Shown: positions 53,954-62,948 of the stretch, one piece after another
How the letters are laid out: every line of letters starts with the position of its first letter
Position numbering within the stretch: position 1 is the stretch's first letter
Translations under genes and position numbers: made by a program
The notes under the pieces: generated by a model
The model's input: the letters and a program-made list of their open reading frames with translations, nothing else
Databases searched by the model: none
What the model was told of the DNA's origin: nothing
Assembly: GCA_027459705.1 (NCBI GenBank)
Contig: DAIDHM010000154.1
Coordinates: 1-62,948 of the forward strand
Length of the DNA: 62,948 bases
DNA from: Ktedonobacteria bacterium
Lineage (GTDB): Bacteria; Chloroflexota; Ktedonobacteria; Ktedonobacterales; JACDGC01
Direction: 5' to 3'

Positions 53954-54505
53954 TCATACGTCGGTAAACGGCGGAAACTCGGCGTGAAACGCGCGCATGA
54001 GTTGTTCGACATCGATGACAGACCGGTGCATGATGGCTGGCGCGATAATGTTCAAAGAAAGGACCGCGCTACGCGCCTGGTGCAAGAGTTCGACATAGCG
54101 CAATGCGGCGCGCGCCAGAAACGCATTATATACCCGGCGATCAGTGCGAGTGACGACGCGGCGGCGATCGAGCACACCACGGCGATGGCGCAACTCTTCT
54201 AAAATGCGCTCTGCGCGTACCAGATCTTGGTCGATTTCTTTGCCGAGCGAAATTTCACGAGGAGCCAGGCCGTGGGTCCGCAAAATATCAAATTCCATTG
54301 CGCGATCGCCCTCATAGGGGTTCCTGTCCAGATTCAAGGGACGACCCGCGCTAGCCAAATTATCAAACTTACCAGCGGCCTGAGCGGCGCGGATCTGTTC
54401 ATCAACCAGGGACGCCCAGGTCTGCCCAGGACGACGAATAGGCAGCACAGGCTGATCGGCACCGGACCCGGCGGAGTGCGGATCGTTTGGCAGTGTGTCG
54501 GGCAT
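53954..54505 (-). CDS. DUF1992 (DnaJ-homologue C28-like) domain protein
   Basis: Protein of 183 residues. The DUF1992 core is clear at about 20-90: VDEQIRAAQAAGKFDNLASA then GRPLNLDRNPYEGDRAMEFD. The family has a J-domain-associated name in eukaryotes but no known bacterial role. A helical C-terminal region follows (LVRAERILEELRHRRGVLDR). ATG 54505 follows GGGAAG. It is the last ordinary chromosomal gene before the tRNA fragment. Confidence 0.8.
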   Translation of the reverse strand: MPDTLPNDPHSAGSGADQPVLPIRRPGQTWASLVDEQIRAAQAAGKFDNLASAGRPLNLDRNPYEGDRAMEFDILRTHGLAPREISLGKEIDQDLVRAERILEELRHRRGVLDRRRVVTRTDRRVYNAFLARAALRYVELLHQARSAVLSLNIIAPAIMHRSVIDVEQLMRAFHAEFPPFTDV

Positions 54506-54701
54506 AGTGTATACTTCCCTTCTTCCCCAATAACTCGACGGGATCAAACACCTGGTTGGGTAAGGTGGTAAGCGCGCATCAATCCACTCGCCAGCCGTTC
54601 TCTAGTAGATAATACAAAAATCGGCGCATATGAAGCACTTCTCTGTTCGACATTGACAAGAACAAGGAGAAAGCTGCTTCACGCGCCATCAGAGGTGGGA
54701 A

Positions 54702-54745
54702 TGGCTGGGGTACAGGGATTCGAACCCCGACCGACTGATCCAGAA
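54702..54745 (-). other. 3' half of a tRNA-Gln(CTG) gene, probable att site
   Basis: On the minus strand the 3' end reads TACCCCAGCCA, as in bacterial tRNA-Gln. The T arm is complete (GGTTCGAATCC with its stem) and the anticodon loop contains CTG (CAG at 54741-54743 on the plus strand). Upstream of the loop the sequence stops resembling a tRNA; there is no D arm, and 54746-54768 pairs only partly with the remaining strands. Integrases often use the tRNA 3' half as the recombination core, so this fits an att site, with the element on the right. The complete gene should lie at the far end, outside the window. Confidence 0.7.
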
Positions 54746-54820
54746 GTGTGTGATCAGCCTTTTACCCAAGATTCCTAACTTATCGGCTTGTAGAGCGACT
54801 TTACACGGGATCATTCCTTC

Positions 54821-55456: not shown

Positions 55457-55975
55457 ATGACGAATAGCGGCTATACACTTTATTTGGATTCATCAAAGAA
55501 TTTGGTTGAGAAGGATAGATCTGATACATATCTTCCGATATATAGCGTTAATTACGACACTATTGCCTATTTCTTTCATACAAATTTAGCAATTGGGTTT
55601 ATTGGAGAATTTGCAAATAATATGAAATTGGCTGTTATTTATCACCCAGGGCAAACAAAAGATATTCTACTAGGATCATTGGCTGTTGCTCAGATAGCCT
55701 TTGCTTTTGTAGGTCTTTATAGACGGTCTAATGAACTAACTGTGTTATTGGAATCTGAGGAACAAGCGATGCTAATTCAAAAGCAACGTGAAATGAGTAT
55801 AGTTGCCATGCAAACAGGGCTGAAAGTTCCGGGGCATATTCATGATTTCATGGAGCATTTCAAAGATGCTAAAAAGTTTCCGGAAGAAGGATACTATACT
55901 GATATTTTCGGCGCACCAAAATTGCGCGTGAGAGGAAAAATTCAAAAGGCTTATATTGAAAGCCACAAAAGTTAA
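55457..55975 (+). CDS. Hypothetical protein, AT-rich gene
   Basis: Protein of 172 residues, unrecognised, starting MTNSGYTLYLDSSKNL. It may have a weak hydrophobic region (ILLGSLAVAQIAFAFVGLYR) followed by a helical part (NELTVLLESEEQAMLIQKQR). ATG 55457 has GGGGAAAGAG upstream; the open frame from 55283 lacks a better start. Base composition is clearly AT-richer than the chromosomal genes, a sign of recent transfer. Confidence 0.6.
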   Translation: MTNSGYTLYLDSSKNLVEKDRSDTYLPIYSVNYDTIAYFFHTNLAIGFIGEFANNMKLAVIYHPGQTKDILLGSLAVAQIAFAFVGLYRRSNELTVLLESEEQAMLIQKQREMSIVAMQTGLKVPGHIHDFMEHFKDAKKFPEEGYYTDIFGAPKLRVRGKIQKAYIESHKS

Positions 55976-56192: not shown

Positions 56193-56762
56193 GTGGAATT
56201 ACAGGCATTGCTGCTCGATTGGTCAAAGCAGCAGGCATCCTTTTATCTGTCGCCATTGATCATTCGCTGGCAACATGTGTTAGGAGTAGTAGATGTTGCT
56301 AGTGAAATCTGTGGGTTGTTTAATGCTGAAGAAAGAGGGCTATTGTTAGCTGCCGCATATCTCCATGATGTAGCCTATAGTTCAGAACTTCGGGTTACTG
56401 GGTTTCATCCTCTCGATGGCGCTCTATTTGTCCGTTCGCATGGTTATGAGCGGCTGGCATGTCTCATTGCTCATCACTCTGGTGCCAGATTTGAAGCTGC
56501 GCTAAGAGGTCTAGAAACACAGATGGCTGAATTTCCTAGGGAAAGATCGTCATTAGCTGATGCTCTTGATTACTGCGATTTGTCAGTTGGGCCAACAGGT
56601 GAACGAGCGATCTTAAGACAAAGAGCAGCGGATATCTTTATGCGCTATGGCCCTGATGATGTGGTCTCCAAATCTTTCAAGATGGCCCTCCCTTATCTTG
56701 CACTTGAGGTAGGAAGAACGAACCGGCGATTAAAGGCTAAGGGCTTGTCTCAGCTTATCTGA
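56193..56762 (+). CDS. HD domain phosphohydrolase
   Basis: Protein of 189 residues with the HD metal pattern: His in RWQHVLGVV, the HD pair in YLHDVAYSS and the final Asp in ADALDYCDLSVGPTGE. AHHSGARFEA adds a second His pair. Such enzymes hydrolyse nucleotides or phosphoesters, and the substrate is unknown. The GTG at 56193 has GAGGCGGGG ahead. Its 3' end overlaps the convergent Nudix gene by eight bases. Confidence 0.85.
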   Translation: MELQALLLDWSKQQASFYLSPLIIRWQHVLGVVDVASEICGLFNAEERGLLLAAAYLHDVAYSSELRVTGFHPLDGALFVRSHGYERLACLIAHHSGARFEAALRGLETQMAEFPRERSSLADALDYCDLSVGPTGERAILRQRAADIFMRYGPDDVVSKSFKMALPYLALEVGRTNRRLKAKGLSQLI

Positions 56763-57225
56763 GAGCAGGTATTCGGCTGCCAACGTAGTAGTCGTCGATC
56801 CGTTGCCTGATGGAAGAATGCAATTCAAGATGCTGTATTTCCTCGTGAGAGAAGAATGCAATGCCCGTAGATTCGTCACTGACCTTTAGTTGACCGCCGA
56901 TGACTTTGCAGGCAAAGCAGATAGAGAACTCCTGCCGTACCTCTCCGTCACTGTATGCAATGACATGTTTAGGATTGGAGTAGATTCCAACGATGCCGGT
57001 TGGCTCTATGATAAGCCCCGTTTCTTCCTTGATTTCTCGATGCAGTGCGTCAACGATCGTTTCGCCGATCTCCATTGTCCCGCCAGGTAGTCCCCACAAA
57101 CCATTATCGCTTCTTCGTTGAAGCAATATCCTTCCTTCGGAGTCGGTAATGATCGCCGATACCGCTGGGATGATTGTGTTTGCTTGAGGTGCGTTTGGAT
57201 CGTCAAGAAAATCAGTGCGTGCCAT
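56755..57225 (-). CDS. Nudix hydrolase
   Basis: Protein of 156 residues with a complete Nudix box in the form GGTMEIGETIVDALHREIKE followed by ETG, matching GX5EX7REUXEEXGU. The preceding strand ILLQRRSDNGLWGLP is typical. Nudix enzymes cleave nucleoside diphosphates linked to other groups. The gene follows the XRE regulator by three bases, so it is the second gene of that operon. The immunity protein Pif of the actinobacterial element pSAM2 also carries a Nudix motif, which makes an element-related role possible. Confidence 0.9.
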   Translation of the reverse strand: MARTDFLDDPNAPQANTIIPAVSAIITDSEGRILLQRRSDNGLWGLPGGTMEIGETIVDALHREIKEETGLIIEPTGIVGIYSNPKHVIAYSDGEVRQEFSICFACKVIGGQLKVSDESTGIAFFSHEEIQHLELHSSIRQRIDDYYVGSRIPALR

Positions 57226-57228
57226 TGC

Positions 57229-58008
57229 TTACTCCATTCCCACTTTCGCTCGAACAGAAGAGGCAACCATCTTTTGAGGAATGGGCGTTGCATTTGCCCA
57301 TACGGCCTCGAAGTGTTCAGCAAAGTTAGCAAAGATTCCGTGTTTTCCCAGGTTCCGAAGATGGAGCAATGGAGCCTTTGAGCCATGCAAACCGTACATG
57401 TGTGGGGTTACGAACATTTCACCATCAAATCGAAAGATCGAGTTGTAAAGCGGGATGCGATGGTAAGCCATCTCGATGCTTGGCTTACCTTGTAGTTCGC
57501 GCAGGTGTAGAAGAGTGGATTTGATTCTACCTGGCAAAGTTCCACCCAGCCCCTCTTCGTCGTCGCGATCACTCACCTGAGGGCTATCTGGATCTGCGAG
57601 GGCTAATCGAATGTTACAGCCTCGTTCGCTTTTCTTAATGAGCAGCTGAGCGAGATCGGGATGTTGTTCGGGTAGAAAGAGCATTGCGTATCCAAGTAGG
57701 TCAATTTGCGATTCGGCCTTGGTGAATTGCTCCCACCAGGCAGAAACCGGAACGTCAGTTCTGCGGGCATATGCAGATATGATCTCTGACGTTTTAGGGG
57801 ATCCTTCGATGGATACATCCGTTGTGCCAGGCCAGAGATAATCTTCCCTCTCAGCAAGTAGCTTTGATATAGTCCACCTATGGCGTGGGTGGGGCACTCG
57901 GCCATTCACCCAGCGCTGGACCGTTTTGGGATCTGCTCCTGTTTCCTGAGCAATCTTTCCAACATTTATATGCTTGCCAGCCATCGCATTCTTTAGTCGC
58001 TCGTTCAT
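57229..58008 (-). CDS. XRE-type regulator with DUF5919 (PLD-like) domain
   Basis: Protein of 259 residues. The N-terminal 55 residues form a helix-turn-helix (NVGKIAQETGADPKTVQRW). The rest (about 75-255) resembles DUF5919, a phospholipase-D-like fold of uncertain activity, with YHRIPLYNSIFRFDGEMFVT near its end. ATG 58008 has GGGAGG nearby. A -10 TATAAT upstream lies among GGACGTTT-like repeats, which suggests autoregulation. It forms an operon with the Nudix gene and is divergent from the replication genes. Confidence 0.82.
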   Translation of the reverse strand: MNERLKNAMAGKHINVGKIAQETGADPKTVQRWVNGRVPHPRHRWTISKLLAEREDYLWPGTTDVSIEGSPKTSEIISAYARRTDVPVSAWWEQFTKAESQIDLLGYAMLFLPEQHPDLAQLLIKKSERGCNIRLALADPDSPQVSDRDDEEGLGGTLPGRIKSTLLHLRELQGKPSIEMAYHRIPLYNSIFRFDGEMFVTPHMYGLHGSKAPLLHLRNLGKHGIFANFAEHFEAVWANATPIPQKMVASSVRAKVGME

Positions 58009-58031
58009 TATCACCTCCCGATGTACATTTA

Positions 58032-58070
58032 GGACGTTTGCATTATAGCATAAATCGTCCCGAAACGTCC
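58032..58070 (-). promoter_or_regulatory. Promoter and probable operator of the XRE-Nudix operon
   Basis: On the minus strand TATAAT lies at 58047-58042, extended by GC. It is flanked by inverted copies GGACGTTT (58032-58039) and AAACGTCC (58063-58070), with a third half-site ATCGTCC at 58054-58060. The arrangement is typical of an autoregulated XRE promoter that can also silence the divergent genes. Confidence 0.5.
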
Positions 58071-58145
58071 CCATGAGTAGTTTTCTCGTCCGCTTGCCCA
58101 GGCTACCCTTTAACTAGTCCTTAGCGGGTTAGAGGAGGCGAGCAA

Positions 58146-58442
58146 ATGGCGAAGAAAGCACGGTTGACTGAAGCGAATAGAAGCGGTTCACGCGCTGTCG
58201 TGGTGGGAAAGCACAGTTCTTCCCAGGCTTCTCCGCGCACTTCTCACGCTCCTCAAACGATGCACATGCCCCCAGGTTATTCGACTCAGGATGTGGAGGT
58301 CATTCTTGAGGCATTGTGGGGCATGTTCACTCAAAACCAGGCTAACAGACTGATCGTAGCGATCCCTTGGGACGATTCGGAAGAACCGCTCAAAGTGTCG
58401 CTATCTCGTTTAGTCAGCATTTATGAAAGCTGGCTGAACTAA
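58146..58442 (+). CDS. Hypothetical protein, first of the rightward element genes
   Basis: Protein of 98 residues, unrecognised. A basic, Ser-rich N-terminus (RLTEANRSGSRAVVVGKHSS) precedes a helical C-terminal half (DVEVILEALWGMFTQNQANR). ATG 58146 has AGAGGAGG about eight bases upstream. It opens the rightward gene row of the element. The next gene starts 48 bp on. Confidence 0.6.
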   Translation: MAKKARLTEANRSGSRAVVVGKHSSSQASPRTSHAPQTMHMPPGYSTQDVEVILEALWGMFTQNQANRLIVAIPWDDSEEPLKVSLSRLVSIYESWLN

Positions 58443-58490: not shown

Positions 58491-58823
58491 ATGCGTATCC
58501 TGCAAGCTCGCATCCAAGGTGGCACCACTACCAGCATCACCACTCGCAAAGGCGACACCCTCCAGAAAACCCGGCTCAAGGTCATCGACATGGGCGATGA
58601 GACGGCTGGGGACCTTCCCATCTACTGGATCGACTTCCTGGGCGACGCCTCGCTGACTGAAGACGAGATCCGCACCCTCTTGCACAAAGAGGTCTCCATC
58701 GATATCCGCCGGGTCTCGCCCTCTCAGGGCAAGGACGGCAAAGCCTACCTCAACCTCACTGGTGGCGCCATCATCGGCGAACAGGGGTTGATGCAGAAAC
58801 GGCTCGCGGGCAAGTCCGCCTAG
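58491..58823 (+). CDS. Possible single-strand DNA-binding OB-fold protein
   Basis: Protein of 110 residues. The start ITTRKGDTLQKTRLKVIDMG and the strand VSIDIRRVSPSQGKDGKAYL recall small OB-fold ssDNA-binding proteins such as filamentous phage gene V protein. I see no diagnostic motif, so this rests on size, strand pattern and position beside a rolling-circle initiator. ATG 58491 has AGAAGGAG upstream. Confidence 0.5.
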   Translation: MRILQARIQGGTTTSITTRKGDTLQKTRLKVIDMGDETAGDLPIYWIDFLGDASLTEDEIRTLLHKEVSIDIRRVSPSQGKDGKAYLNLTGGAIIGEQGLMQKRLAGKSA

Positions 58824-58882: not shown

Positions 58883-59416
58883 ATGTTTGACCCACGCATC
58901 TCCGAACTCCTCCTGAGTGAGGAAGCAGTCATTGCTCAGGAGGACGCCGAGGAGTCGTCTTCGTTGATCACCTTACCCGTCCCGGCGCGCTGGATCGCGC
59001 GGGTCGAACGGCTCGACCGCTGGGAGCGCCAGGCGCTCATCTTGCTGACGGCTCCCGATTGGTATGGGCAGCCCTCCCCCTTCTCCTCCTGGGGTACGCC
59101 TTTAGCTCCCGCGATCGAACGCTTGCAAGAGCAGGGGCTCGCTCTCTGGACGGCTCGGGGGGCGACCGTCTCGACCTTGGGGGAAACGCTCGTCGCGGTG
59201 CTGCTCTTGGGACAGGTCTATCCCTGTCTGACGGGCAATGGGTTTGGCCATGTCTGGGAGCCTACCATGGTCGTAGGTTGGATGCGTTGTCCAGCCTGTG
59301 AGGCCGTACGGGTCTGTCGAGCCTGTTTCCTGGCCGCCTATCCTGGGATGCCTTGTCCTCGGCAGCCCATGCCGGTCGCGTGCTCCCAGCATGCCTCCTC
59401 CGGAAAGGCGTGGTAA
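58883..59416 (+). CDS. Hypothetical protein with Cys-rich C-terminus
   Basis: Protein of 177 residues. The first 100 residues are helical with a winged-helix flavour (RWERQALILLTAPDWYG and PLAPAIERLQEQGLALWTAR). The C-terminus carries six Cys in CPACEAVRVCRAC and CPRQPMPVAC, enough for one or two zinc sites. ATG 58883 follows AAAGGA. It could be a DNA-binding protein of the element. It ends two bases before the membrane-protein gene. Confidence 0.58.
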   Translation: MFDPRISELLLSEEAVIAQEDAEESSSLITLPVPARWIARVERLDRWERQALILLTAPDWYGQPSPFSSWGTPLAPAIERLQEQGLALWTARGATVSTLGETLVAVLLLGQVYPCLTGNGFGHVWEPTMVVGWMRCPACEAVRVCRACFLAAYPGMPCPRQPMPVACSQHASSGKAW

Positions 59417-59418
59417 CG

Positions 59419-60276
59419 ATGGCAGGTACAGTCACCCAGGTCAAACGGGTGCGGGTCTCCCCGATGGACCGCATCGATTACTTCCTGCGCTCGCGGGCCT
59501 CCAAGGTCGTCGTGATGGCCCTGGTCACGAATACGATGGTCGCGCAACTGCTCTACAACTCGGCGGGGCAGCTCGTCCTGTCGAATCGGTTTTTGCTGGG
59601 CTACCTCATCGTCTCGGCGGTCTGCTCGACGTTGGCCTTCGCCCTCTTCGAGGTGAGCACGATGTTCCAGCTGCATGACTTAATGGCGCTCGATGCGTCC
59701 ATCAAACAGGAAATTGGAGCAGAGCAGCTCATTCGGCGAGGTTATCTCGTGCTGGCGGTCTCCTCGGTCATCAATTTCGTGTCGGTGCTGTATTTCCTGG
59801 CCCTGGCCTGGCATACCACCAGGGGCAATGCTGCGCATTTTCCCCTCGATGATCTGCCCTCTCCCTGGAATTGGCTGTACTATGCCCTGCATGCTGCCGC
59901 GTATACGGCGGTGCTCTTCCTGGCAGGCATCTTTGGGGAACGGCCCAAGAGCGGGAAAGAGGTGGTGTTAGCCACCCAGCGGGCCCTTGAACAACAGGCT
60001 TTGGAACGCTGGCGGATGCAGAAAGAGGCCCGCATTGACCAGATGGCCCGCGATGGGGAACCGTTGGCACCAGTGGCGGCGGCGCTCGCCTCGCCAGAGA
60101 CCGCCGAGCGGATCGCGGTCCTGGAAGCGGCGACGAGCGGAACGCTCACCGCCATGGATGCGGCCCGGCTCAATCTCCAGCGAGCAGGCCATGATCTCAC
60201 GCTACTCGATGGCCTCCAGGAGGTCGGTGCACCGTCCGCCCTCCCTTTGCCCGTCAACAACGGCCAACGCATGTAG
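59419..60276 (+). CDS. Polytopic membrane protein with cytoplasmic coiled coil
   Basis: Protein of 285 residues with about four hydrophobic segments in the first 180 (VVVMALVTNTMVAQLLY, LGYLIVSAVCSTLAFALFEV, VLAVSSVINFVSVLYFLALA and ALHAAAYTAVLFLAGIFG). A charged helical tail follows (RALEQQALERWRMQKEARID). There is no Walker motif, so it is not a Zot- or FtsK-like motor. It may be a DNA-transfer or phage-assembly membrane component; that is inference from position. Confidence 0.65.
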   Translation: MAGTVTQVKRVRVSPMDRIDYFLRSRASKVVVMALVTNTMVAQLLYNSAGQLVLSNRFLLGYLIVSAVCSTLAFALFEVSTMFQLHDLMALDASIKQEIGAEQLIRRGYLVLAVSSVINFVSVLYFLALAWHTTRGNAAHFPLDDLPSPWNWLYYALHAAAYTAVLFLAGIFGERPKSGKEVVLATQRALEQQALERWRMQKEARIDQMARDGEPLAPVAAALASPETAERIAVLEAATSGTLTAMDAARLNLQRAGHDLTLLDGLQEVGAPSALPLPVNNGQRM

Positions 60277-60822: not shown

Positions 60823-62013
60823 ATGCCGTATACATTAGTGAATCAAAACCCGGATACTGTCGTGCTCAATGTGCGGGGGAAGCTCCCTGAGGAGATCACC
60901 ACAGCACTGGACCGAATCAAGGAATTCGCCCAAGAAGCGGAAGATGTGGTCCCAACGCCCTGGGAGTTCCTCGGACAAACGCTGTATTGTCGCCCTAATG
61001 GCAGTGGTCGACAGTGGCGCTGGGTGCTCTTCTGCGGGGATCATTACCTGCATCTCGACCTGGGGACGGGCAAATTGAACAACATCTGCGCCAAGGTGCG
61101 CTGTTCGTCGTTGCTCCTCCACGAGAAGGGCTTGGCCGATACCCTGGGAGCGGTGTATGCCTTCCTGGTGCATTGGCAAGGGCGCGAGCGCTTCGAACTC
61201 CAGGTGAGTGAAGTCCATCTGTGTGTCGATGTCGCGGGCTGGTCCCTCACCGATGCGGATACCCGGTGCTTCGTTTCTCGCGCCACGCCCCACGATATTC
61301 CTGAAGAGGAAGTCCAACGCATCCCGGAAACAACGCGCCGGGGTCGCAAGATTCAGGCGCTGGAATTCAGCAAGAAGGCGCCCCATAGCTGTGTGCTGTA
61401 CGACAAACTCAAAGAGTCGCGCATCCATCACAAGGAATGGTTCGCCGAGGTCTGGAAGCAAAACGGATGGGATGGCGAGTCTCCGGTGTTGCGCATCGAA
61501 TGCCGCTATGAGCGCGAATGGCTGCGCGAACATCAGGTCGAAGAACCCTATGCCATGCTCGACCAGCTCGCGGGCATGTGGGCCTACTCGACGCAACTCT
61601 GGTTGCGCCATGTCCAACCCACGAGCGACCGCAATCAATCTCGCTGGGAAACCTCGCCCGTCTGGCAACTCGTTCAGAGCGCGACCTTCGAGGGGGACCC
61701 AACGCCGCTAGCGCGACACAAGAAAGTCGAGCTGGATACCGAACGAGCCAAGGCGGGCTATGTGGGGTATGCGACCTCCTGGGCGCTCCGGGAAGTCGCA
61801 CTCTATAACTTCCAGCATGCGGGCGGGGTAGTGCTCCAGATTGAGGACTTGCCAGAGGGATTACCGCTTTCAGCGGTAGATGAGAGTGGTGGGGGCTTCC
61901 TAGCCTGGTCGTTTGATGAGATGCAAGACTATCTTGCCAAGCGTAAGGGGGCCACATTTGTCGATCTCATGCTCCAGAAAGCCAAGCGCCTGGGTCTAAA
62001 GCTGAAGGCATAA
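60823..62013 (+). CDS. Rolling-circle replication initiator / relaxase, Rep_trans family
   Basis: Protein of 396 residues. The Rep_trans pattern is visible: ICAKVRCSSLLLHEKGLADT, then SEVHLCVDVAGWSL, ALEFSKKAPHSCVLYDKLKE with a candidate active-site Tyr, and VLRIECRYEREWL. The family includes pT181-type Rep, the NicK relaxase of ICEBs1 and initiators of filamentous phages. It nicks one strand at a hairpin and starts rolling-circle replication or transfer. ATG 60823 has AAAGGCGG upstream. The hairpin cluster just before it is the probable target. Confidence 0.78.
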   Translation: MPYTLVNQNPDTVVLNVRGKLPEEITTALDRIKEFAQEAEDVVPTPWEFLGQTLYCRPNGSGRQWRWVLFCGDHYLHLDLGTGKLNNICAKVRCSSLLLHEKGLADTLGAVYAFLVHWQGRERFELQVSEVHLCVDVAGWSLTDADTRCFVSRATPHDIPEEEVQRIPETTRRGRKIQALEFSKKAPHSCVLYDKLKESRIHHKEWFAEVWKQNGWDGESPVLRIECRYEREWLREHQVEEPYAMLDQLAGMWAYSTQLWLRHVQPTSDRNQSRWETSPVWQLVQSATFEGDPTPLARHKKVELDTERAKAGYVGYATSWALREVALYNFQHAGGVVLQIEDLPEGLPLSAVDESGGGFLAWSFDEMQDYLAKRKGATFVDLMLQKAKRLGLKLKA

Positions 62014-62200: not shown

Positions 62201-62227
62201 GGGGAAGATTTTAATCTTTTCCCTTTT
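62201..62227 (+). terminator. Terminator of the rep gene row
   Basis: GGGGAAGATT pairs with AATCTTTTCCC, allowing wobble pairs, and TTTTC follows. It lies just before the stop of the minus-strand gene at 62227. Confidence 0.5.
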
Positions 62228-62862
62228 CAATTAAGTTGTTCATCTTTTACATCAATGTATGTTGCTAATTTACGCCTAAATTGGTTGAATTTCCTTTTTA
62301 ATTGTAACCTCTTAAAAAAGGAGTAGGTTGAATCTGGTATGCTGATACCTTGAAAGCTCATTATTTGATGAGCTAATCCCATGCACTCATACCAAGCTTC
62401 GCGACAATTCTCAAAATTTTCCCTCACATAAGCCTCATATTCAGTTTCTAAAAAAGATCGACGTGGGCGAGAGACAATTGGAGTTAGACGCCATTTCATA
62501 AATTCAGCTTGCGCATCTGGAATATACTTATCCATGAGTAATTTTAAGCGCTCTCTTGCCTGGAGGATGTGCTCTGCATTGTTATACAGGCTCCTTACAC
62601 TTCCTATAGTTTGATCACCTAAAATCGATGTAAACATAACTTGATTGCTTTCCCAAACAATCCTATTCCAAACCGGAATAGATGAATTCACGAGTTGTAT
62701 ACATTTTTGAAACTCAAGCAAAGGCAAAGTGCCTTCTAAGTTCGACTCAACTTGTTGGCGCCAATATATCCTAAATGAGTCAACATTTGCATGAATTTCA
62801 CTGTAAAGGTATACGTCCCAGGAAGTGGGGAAAATTGGAGCAAGCGATGGGCATGAGTAGGA
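62227..62862 (-). pseudogene. AT-rich gene with no visible start, probably truncated
   Basis: The frame from 62227 encodes at least 166 residues after a TTG at 62727. It reads on upstream as plausible protein (HANVDSFRIYWRQQVESNLE) without ATG or GTG until it reaches the palindrome at 62865. The protein is helical and basic toward its end (FFKRLQLKRKFNQFRRKLAT). I do not recognise it. The missing N-terminus and the adjoining palindrome suggest that the gene was cut by a rearrangement; a TTG start at 62727 remains possible. Confidence 0.45.
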
Positions 62863-62864
62863 AC

Positions 62865-62910
62865 AAGCAGGGGGTAGAGTAGCCCTGCAGGGCTACTCTA
62901 CCCCCTGCTT
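62865..62910. repeat. Perfect 46-bp palindrome
   Basis: Each 23-base half (from AAGCAGGGGGTAGAG inward to CCCTG) is the exact reverse complement of the other, with no loop, centred between 62887 and 62888 on CTGCAG. It borders the start-less gene. Possible roles are a strong terminator, a mobile-element end or a replication structure. Confidence 0.85.
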
Positions 62911-62948
62911 GGCGTCGCTGTCAAGGGCAGTGGGGTCAATATACTGCC

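Follow-up and report, generated by a model that had tools for sequence, protein, structure and literature searches.

The window analysed here, a stretch of 62,948 nt, is an entire contig (C130) of a draft Ktedonobacteria genome (4.6 Mb in 245 contigs, 95% complete) and ends at position 62948. Its reverse strand carries, at positions 54702 to 54745, the displaced 3′ half of a tRNA-Gln(CTG) gene, which runs from the anticodon loop to CCA. To the left of this fragment lies a minus-strand gene encoding a DJC28-domain protein (53954 to 54547; PF09350, E = 2.1e-14), which we assign to the chromosomal flank; its homologues occur in 41 of 61 genomes and are conserved across the order, and none of the ORFs listed to the left of it encodes an integrase. 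To the right of the junction, the GC content drops to 0.37–0.41, and the genes resemble those of a small mobile element.

Read on the reverse strand from 54745 to 54702, the fragment (TTCTGGATCAGTCGGTCGGGGTTCGAATCCCTGTACCCCAGCCA) comprises the anticodon loop, the 3′ strand of the anticodon stem, the variable loop, the T arm, the 3′ acceptor strand, the discriminator G and CCA. BLAST searches matched it in 54 of 61 genomes, its own included, with the tRNA-Gln of genome G003 as the best match (93%, E = 2.8e-13). In most alignments, the match begins at 54744 or 54745, at the start of the anticodon loop. ARAGORN identified the targets checked as intact tRNA-Gln genes, with CTG as the anticodon in nearly all of them, and these matches, together with the sequence itself, bear out the description in the earlier note of a minus-strand tRNA-Gln(CTG) 3′ half with an encoded CCA. 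Across the 5′ side, the intact homologues read GGCTGA[C/T]TCTGGATCAGT, whereas in the window the loop TTCTGGA has GGCTGATCACACAC directly ahead of it, so that the similarity extends no further than the first base of the loop. Neither ARAGORN nor Rfam, at the gathering score, reported a tRNA anywhere in the window.

The genes nearest to the junction are cargo-like and comprise an ORF without an assigned family (55457 to 55975, plus strand), an HD-domain protein (56193 to 56762, plus strand; PF01966, E = 1.1e-07), a NUDIX hydrolase (56755 to 57225, minus strand; PF00293, E = 9.9e-22) and an HTH/DUF5919 protein (57229 to 58074, minus strand; PF19319, E = 3.6e-07). The following ORFs, all on the plus strand, begin with a small ORF (58146 to 58442) shared with L137, a related element at a tRNA-Lys gene (45% over 98 amino acids, E = 9e-27), and a core ORF of 110 amino acids (58491 to 58823), which is present in six related elements (49–63% identity, E = 1e-21 to 5e-29). 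An ORF with no assigned function (58883 to 59416) precedes a core membrane-type ORF (59353 to 60276), which is hydrophobic by inspection, possibly has a later start, and is 29% identical over 269 amino acids (E = 2.7e-18) to the gene at the equivalent position in the related element L139. Next comes the gene for a putative rolling-circle-type replication initiator (Rep; 60823 to 62013), followed in an AT-rich stretch by a minus-strand ORF that is not an integrase (62227 to 62727).

The Rep reading frame is intact. Of 47 genomes of the order, 24 contain homologues of the protein, frequently more than one per genome; where genomes with this family have names, most belong to Ktedonobacteria, Dictyobacter kobayashii among them. 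A Pfam search at E 0.1 gave no match for Rep, a sequence-profile search gave no credible match to a solved structure, and its relatives show weak matches to PHROG replication families. The predicted fold, a medium-confidence model with a mean pLDDT of 70, matched the rolling-circle replication (RCR) initiator 4CIJ in Foldseek (E = 3.6e-07, probability 1.00), with modest TM-scores of 0.36/0.50, and the family has invariant YDK..E and R.E residues. Rep would thus be classed as an RCR initiator by its fold and not by a family name. Furthermore, it shows remote similarity to proteins encoded by 1.7-kb plasmids and by 11-kb Synechococcus phages; beyond this remote similarity of Rep, no near relative of the element was found in plasmids or phages.

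The contig ends 0.9 kb past Rep and 37 bases after a dispersed repeat with a perfect hairpin (62808 to 62911). This non-coding repeat of about 100 bp (GGTATACGTCCCAGGAAGTGG...) carries the long perfect hairpin at its end, and several contigs break there: a copy terminates C53, another opens C68, and further copies lie at C46:17328, C186:61494 and C157:20811. It resembles a palindromic, non-autonomous mobile repeat. C68 was rejected as the continuation of the contig, as the hairpin repeat is the only sequence that the two have in common. No tyrosine integrase is encoded in the window between the junction and 62948, and the assembly has five PF00589 matches, none of which could be linked to the element. 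An intact tRNA-Gln(CTG) repeating 54702 to 54745, for which the earlier note had proposed to search, was found neither in the window, which ends first, nor in the assembly (95% complete), which also yielded no second copy of the 3′ half and no 5′ half; pairs of this kind were seen in relatives. The sole tRNA-Gln in the assembly is a tRNA-Gln(TTG), on C117. From the sequence of the relatives, we predict that the integrase and an intact tRNA-Gln would lie beyond 62948.

The module consisting of the 110-amino-acid protein, the membrane-type protein and the rolling-circle-type Rep recurs across Ktedonobacterales, and the Rep loci of relatives show a consistent order of Rep, a PF00589 tyrosine integrase and an intact tRNA. 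At 15 loci, an intact tRNA (Lys, His, Pro, Val, Gln, Leu, Glu or Arg) lies 91–239 bp from the integrase with its 3′ end towards it, and Rep is on the same stretch in 14 of these; the exception to the orientation is L192, where the tRNA near the integrase is reversed. In four complete elements of 6–10 kb, both att sites could be read, as direct repeats of 49–66 bp that flank Rep and the integrase and extend from the anticodon loop, or within a few bases of it, through the tRNA 3′ end: L137 at tRNA-Lys(CTT) (repeat of 50 bp, 100% identical; element of 8.6 kb), L139 at tRNA-Pro(GGG) (52 bp, 98%; 6.2 kb), L142 at tRNA-Pro(GGG) (49 bp, 96%; 6.7 kb) and L194 at tRNA-Leu(TAA) (66 bp, 98%; 10 kb). In all four, the displaced tRNA 3′ half is located at the cargo end, opposite the intact tRNA and with the polarity seen in the window, in agreement with the earlier proposal that the element lies to the right. 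L139 comprises, in order, the displaced 3′ half, small ORFs, the 110-amino-acid gene, the membrane-type gene, Rep, the integrase and the intact tRNA-Pro, and the window matches it in gene order and strands up to Rep.

Cargo genes were also noted in the relatives. TIR-domain genes are present near a tRNA-half end in three of them (L142:6216-7145, L141:2980-3492 and L148:10291-10959), and a NUDIX gene is shared by the window and L137, where it matches the PADLOC candidate PDC-S07 (E = 7.1e-15 in the window and 2.5e-09 in L137). The TIR genes show weak PADLOC similarity to ThsB and, as judged from sequence, might serve as anti-phage cargo. Limited literature searches found no paper on these Rep–integrase elements, which look little described. 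Whether they constitute an undescribed, order-wide family of about 6–10 kb that enters the anticodon loops of many isoacceptors, stacks in tandem and carries exchangeable, defence-like TIR/NUDIX cargo beside the displaced half is, in our judgement, evenly balanced.

Further candidate insertions were found at the same target and in the same genome. In G001, a genome of the same family, C612 carries an intact tRNA-Gln(CTG) next to an integrase, and on C395 and C524 the integrases are accompanied by a tRNA-Gln 3′ half but by no intact tRNA; this combination suggests tandem elements at tRNA-Gln(CTG), which appears to be an integration hotspot. In the genome of the window itself, a tyrosine integrase lies next to an intact tRNA-Pro(GGG) at C53:22075-22935; this tRNA pairs with a tRNA-Pro 3′ half at C75:3741-3801, and the two contigs are likely to represent a second element, at tRNA-Pro(GGG). 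On C75, a 5′ stem strand (CCAGT) likewise lies ahead of the crossover. In addition, a tRNA-Arg(CCT) at C70:22677-22749 is accompanied, about 0.9 kb away, by a fragment-like, sub-threshold tRNA match (C70:23639-23726), possibly another insertion that is very small or decayed.

With a probability of about 0.92, we therefore interpret positions 54702 to 54745 as the chromosomal att remnant, on the left side, of a small integrative element whose tyrosine integrase inserted it into tRNA-Gln(CTG) through recombination at the anticodon loop. The window itself contains the fragment with its sharp boundary and the Rep module, and relatives show the complete arrangement, att pairs included. The earlier proposal of a tyrosine-integrase junction at a tRNA gene is supported because these relatives carry complete att pairs, and not because a second end was found here. 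In the proposed mechanism, the integrase would recombine the element into tRNA-Gln(CTG) at the anticodon loop, the tRNA 3′ half carried by the element would rebuild an intact tRNA at the far right end, and the original 3′ half would be left behind at the left end. The element would span from 54746 rightwards past the contig end, with the HD, NUDIX and DUF5919 cargo followed by the 110-amino-acid protein, the membrane-type protein and the RCR-type Rep, and then by the integrase and the intact tRNA-Gln; after excision, the circle may undergo rolling-circle replication. For the window copy, the integrase, the right end and the restored tRNA are predicted by homology, and the cycle of excision and rolling-circle replication is inferred. 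Counted against this interpretation are the lack of an integrase, a right att site and an intact tRNA-Gln(CTG) for the window copy, a partial resemblance of the element-side flank to tRNA 5′ strands (1.2–1.4% of random flanks, see below), and the lack of an empty site: no tRNA-Gln was found in the 1.5-kb flanks of DJC28 homologues at 29 loci of relatives.

A reading that keeps the origin by integration, and departs from ours only over whether the element is complete, is that the insertion is old, its right end with the integrase and the intact tRNA-Gln having since been lost or rearranged, leaving a dead element and a cell that depends on tRNA-Gln(TTG). The absence of an intact tRNA-Gln(CTG) from an assembly that is 95% complete fits this reading, as does the region after Rep, where the ORF is not an integrase and the AT-rich stretch contains a dispersed repeat. 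However, the Rep frame is intact, L137 also has an extra ORF between Rep and the integrase, and the contig stops 0.9 kb past Rep, whereas the tRNA lies 1.2 kb past Rep in L139 and L142 and about 2.0 kb past it in L137 and L194. We consider a dead remnant unlikely.

A far less probable explanation dispenses with integration and regards the fragment as a decayed tRNA-Gln(CTG) pseudogene, in which most of the D arm disappeared and the anticodon loop grew by 8 nt while tRNA-Gln(TTG), the only tRNA-Gln in the assembly, took over the reading of CAG. It draws on the element-side flank (54746 to 54769, minus strand), where the sequence of the tRNA-Gln 5′ anticodon stem, GGCTGAT, is found again 8 nt ahead of the crossover and TTGGGTA lies further upstream. 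The covariance model aligns over its full length across 54705 to 54769, at 15.9 bits (E = 2.2; gathering score 29), because TTGGGTA can pass for a 5′ acceptor strand and GCTGA for a 5′ anticodon stem. This alignment requires a 4-nt D region and a 15-nt anticodon loop, and two other sub-threshold matches in the same genome, the evident displaced tRNA-Pro half on C75 (19.6 bits) and the fragment-like match on C70 (16.1 bits), indicate that 15.9 bits is the score expected of a fragment. In a pairing test with free spacing, 1.2–1.4% of random flanks reached equal or better 5′ pairing; this test replaces an earlier joint motif count (1 in 62,888 positions), which used motifs picked post hoc. The mimicry is unusual but not compelling, and the recurrence of GGCTGAT and TTGGGTA could reflect either chance (about 1%) or part of the recombination site of the element. 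Thus, of the earlier statement that the 5′ half is missing and unrelated sequence begins at 54746, the end of similarity at the loop stands, whereas the flank is not wholly unlike a tRNA. Against decay, the 3′ half is intact and the 5′ half nearly gone, with the boundary exactly at the recombination point of the relatives and with the Rep module of tRNA-targeting elements adjoining in the right polarity. An intact, atypical tRNA, which the earlier note had named as a refutation, is rejected on the ARAGORN and Rfam negatives, the abnormal D region and anticodon loop, and the random-flank pairing rate, and so is a group I intron within a tRNA, as Rfam found no match in the window and the genome contains no 5′ half.

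An integrative element at tRNA-Gln(CTG), our preferred interpretation, has well-described counterparts. Islander identifies islands by a tDNA, a displaced fragment and an integrase, and of 3919 islands, 2083 are anticodon-centred and 3760 have 3′ fragments (PMC4383910); there, an anticodon-loop att site corresponds to class A, citing Williams 2002. Like class A islands, the window has a displaced 3′ fragment that starts at the anticodon loop, where the crossover occurs, and in the relatives this fragment points the same way as the target tRNA and lies downstream of it, with a tyrosine integrase present; unlike in such islands, the predicted intact tRNA and integrase of the window copy would lie outside the assembled sequence. 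The core–overlap–core layout of tyrosine recombinase sites also fits the anticodon stem-loop. AICEs such as pSAM2 (PMC3218068) are similarly small elements at tRNA genes with an integrase and a plasmid-like Rep, but the host here belongs to Ktedonobacteria, and the ten ORFs in the window part of the element, which is cut by the contig end, gave no Pfam match to RepSA, RepAM, Prim-Pol or FtsK/TraB-like genes. IMEs with Rep_trans-type RCR initiators (PMC5704250) share with the Ktedonobacterales elements the tyrosine integrase, the RCR initiator, the small size and site-specific insertion at gene 3′ ends, whereas their described hosts are mainly Firmicutes, the window Rep lacks a Pfam match, and mobilization of its element is hypothetical.

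The junction is an ordinary anticodon-loop integration scar produced by a well-known mechanism, and it leaves our understanding of tRNA-directed integration unchanged; a modest addition comes from the element family with its TIR/NUDIX cargo. For this draft genome, the fragment fixes the left boundary of an island. More broadly, many tRNA genes serve as anticodon-loop targets for the Rep–integrase module in Ktedonobacterales, so that tRNA 3′-half fragments provide a simple handle for delimiting such elements and their cargo in soil metagenomes.
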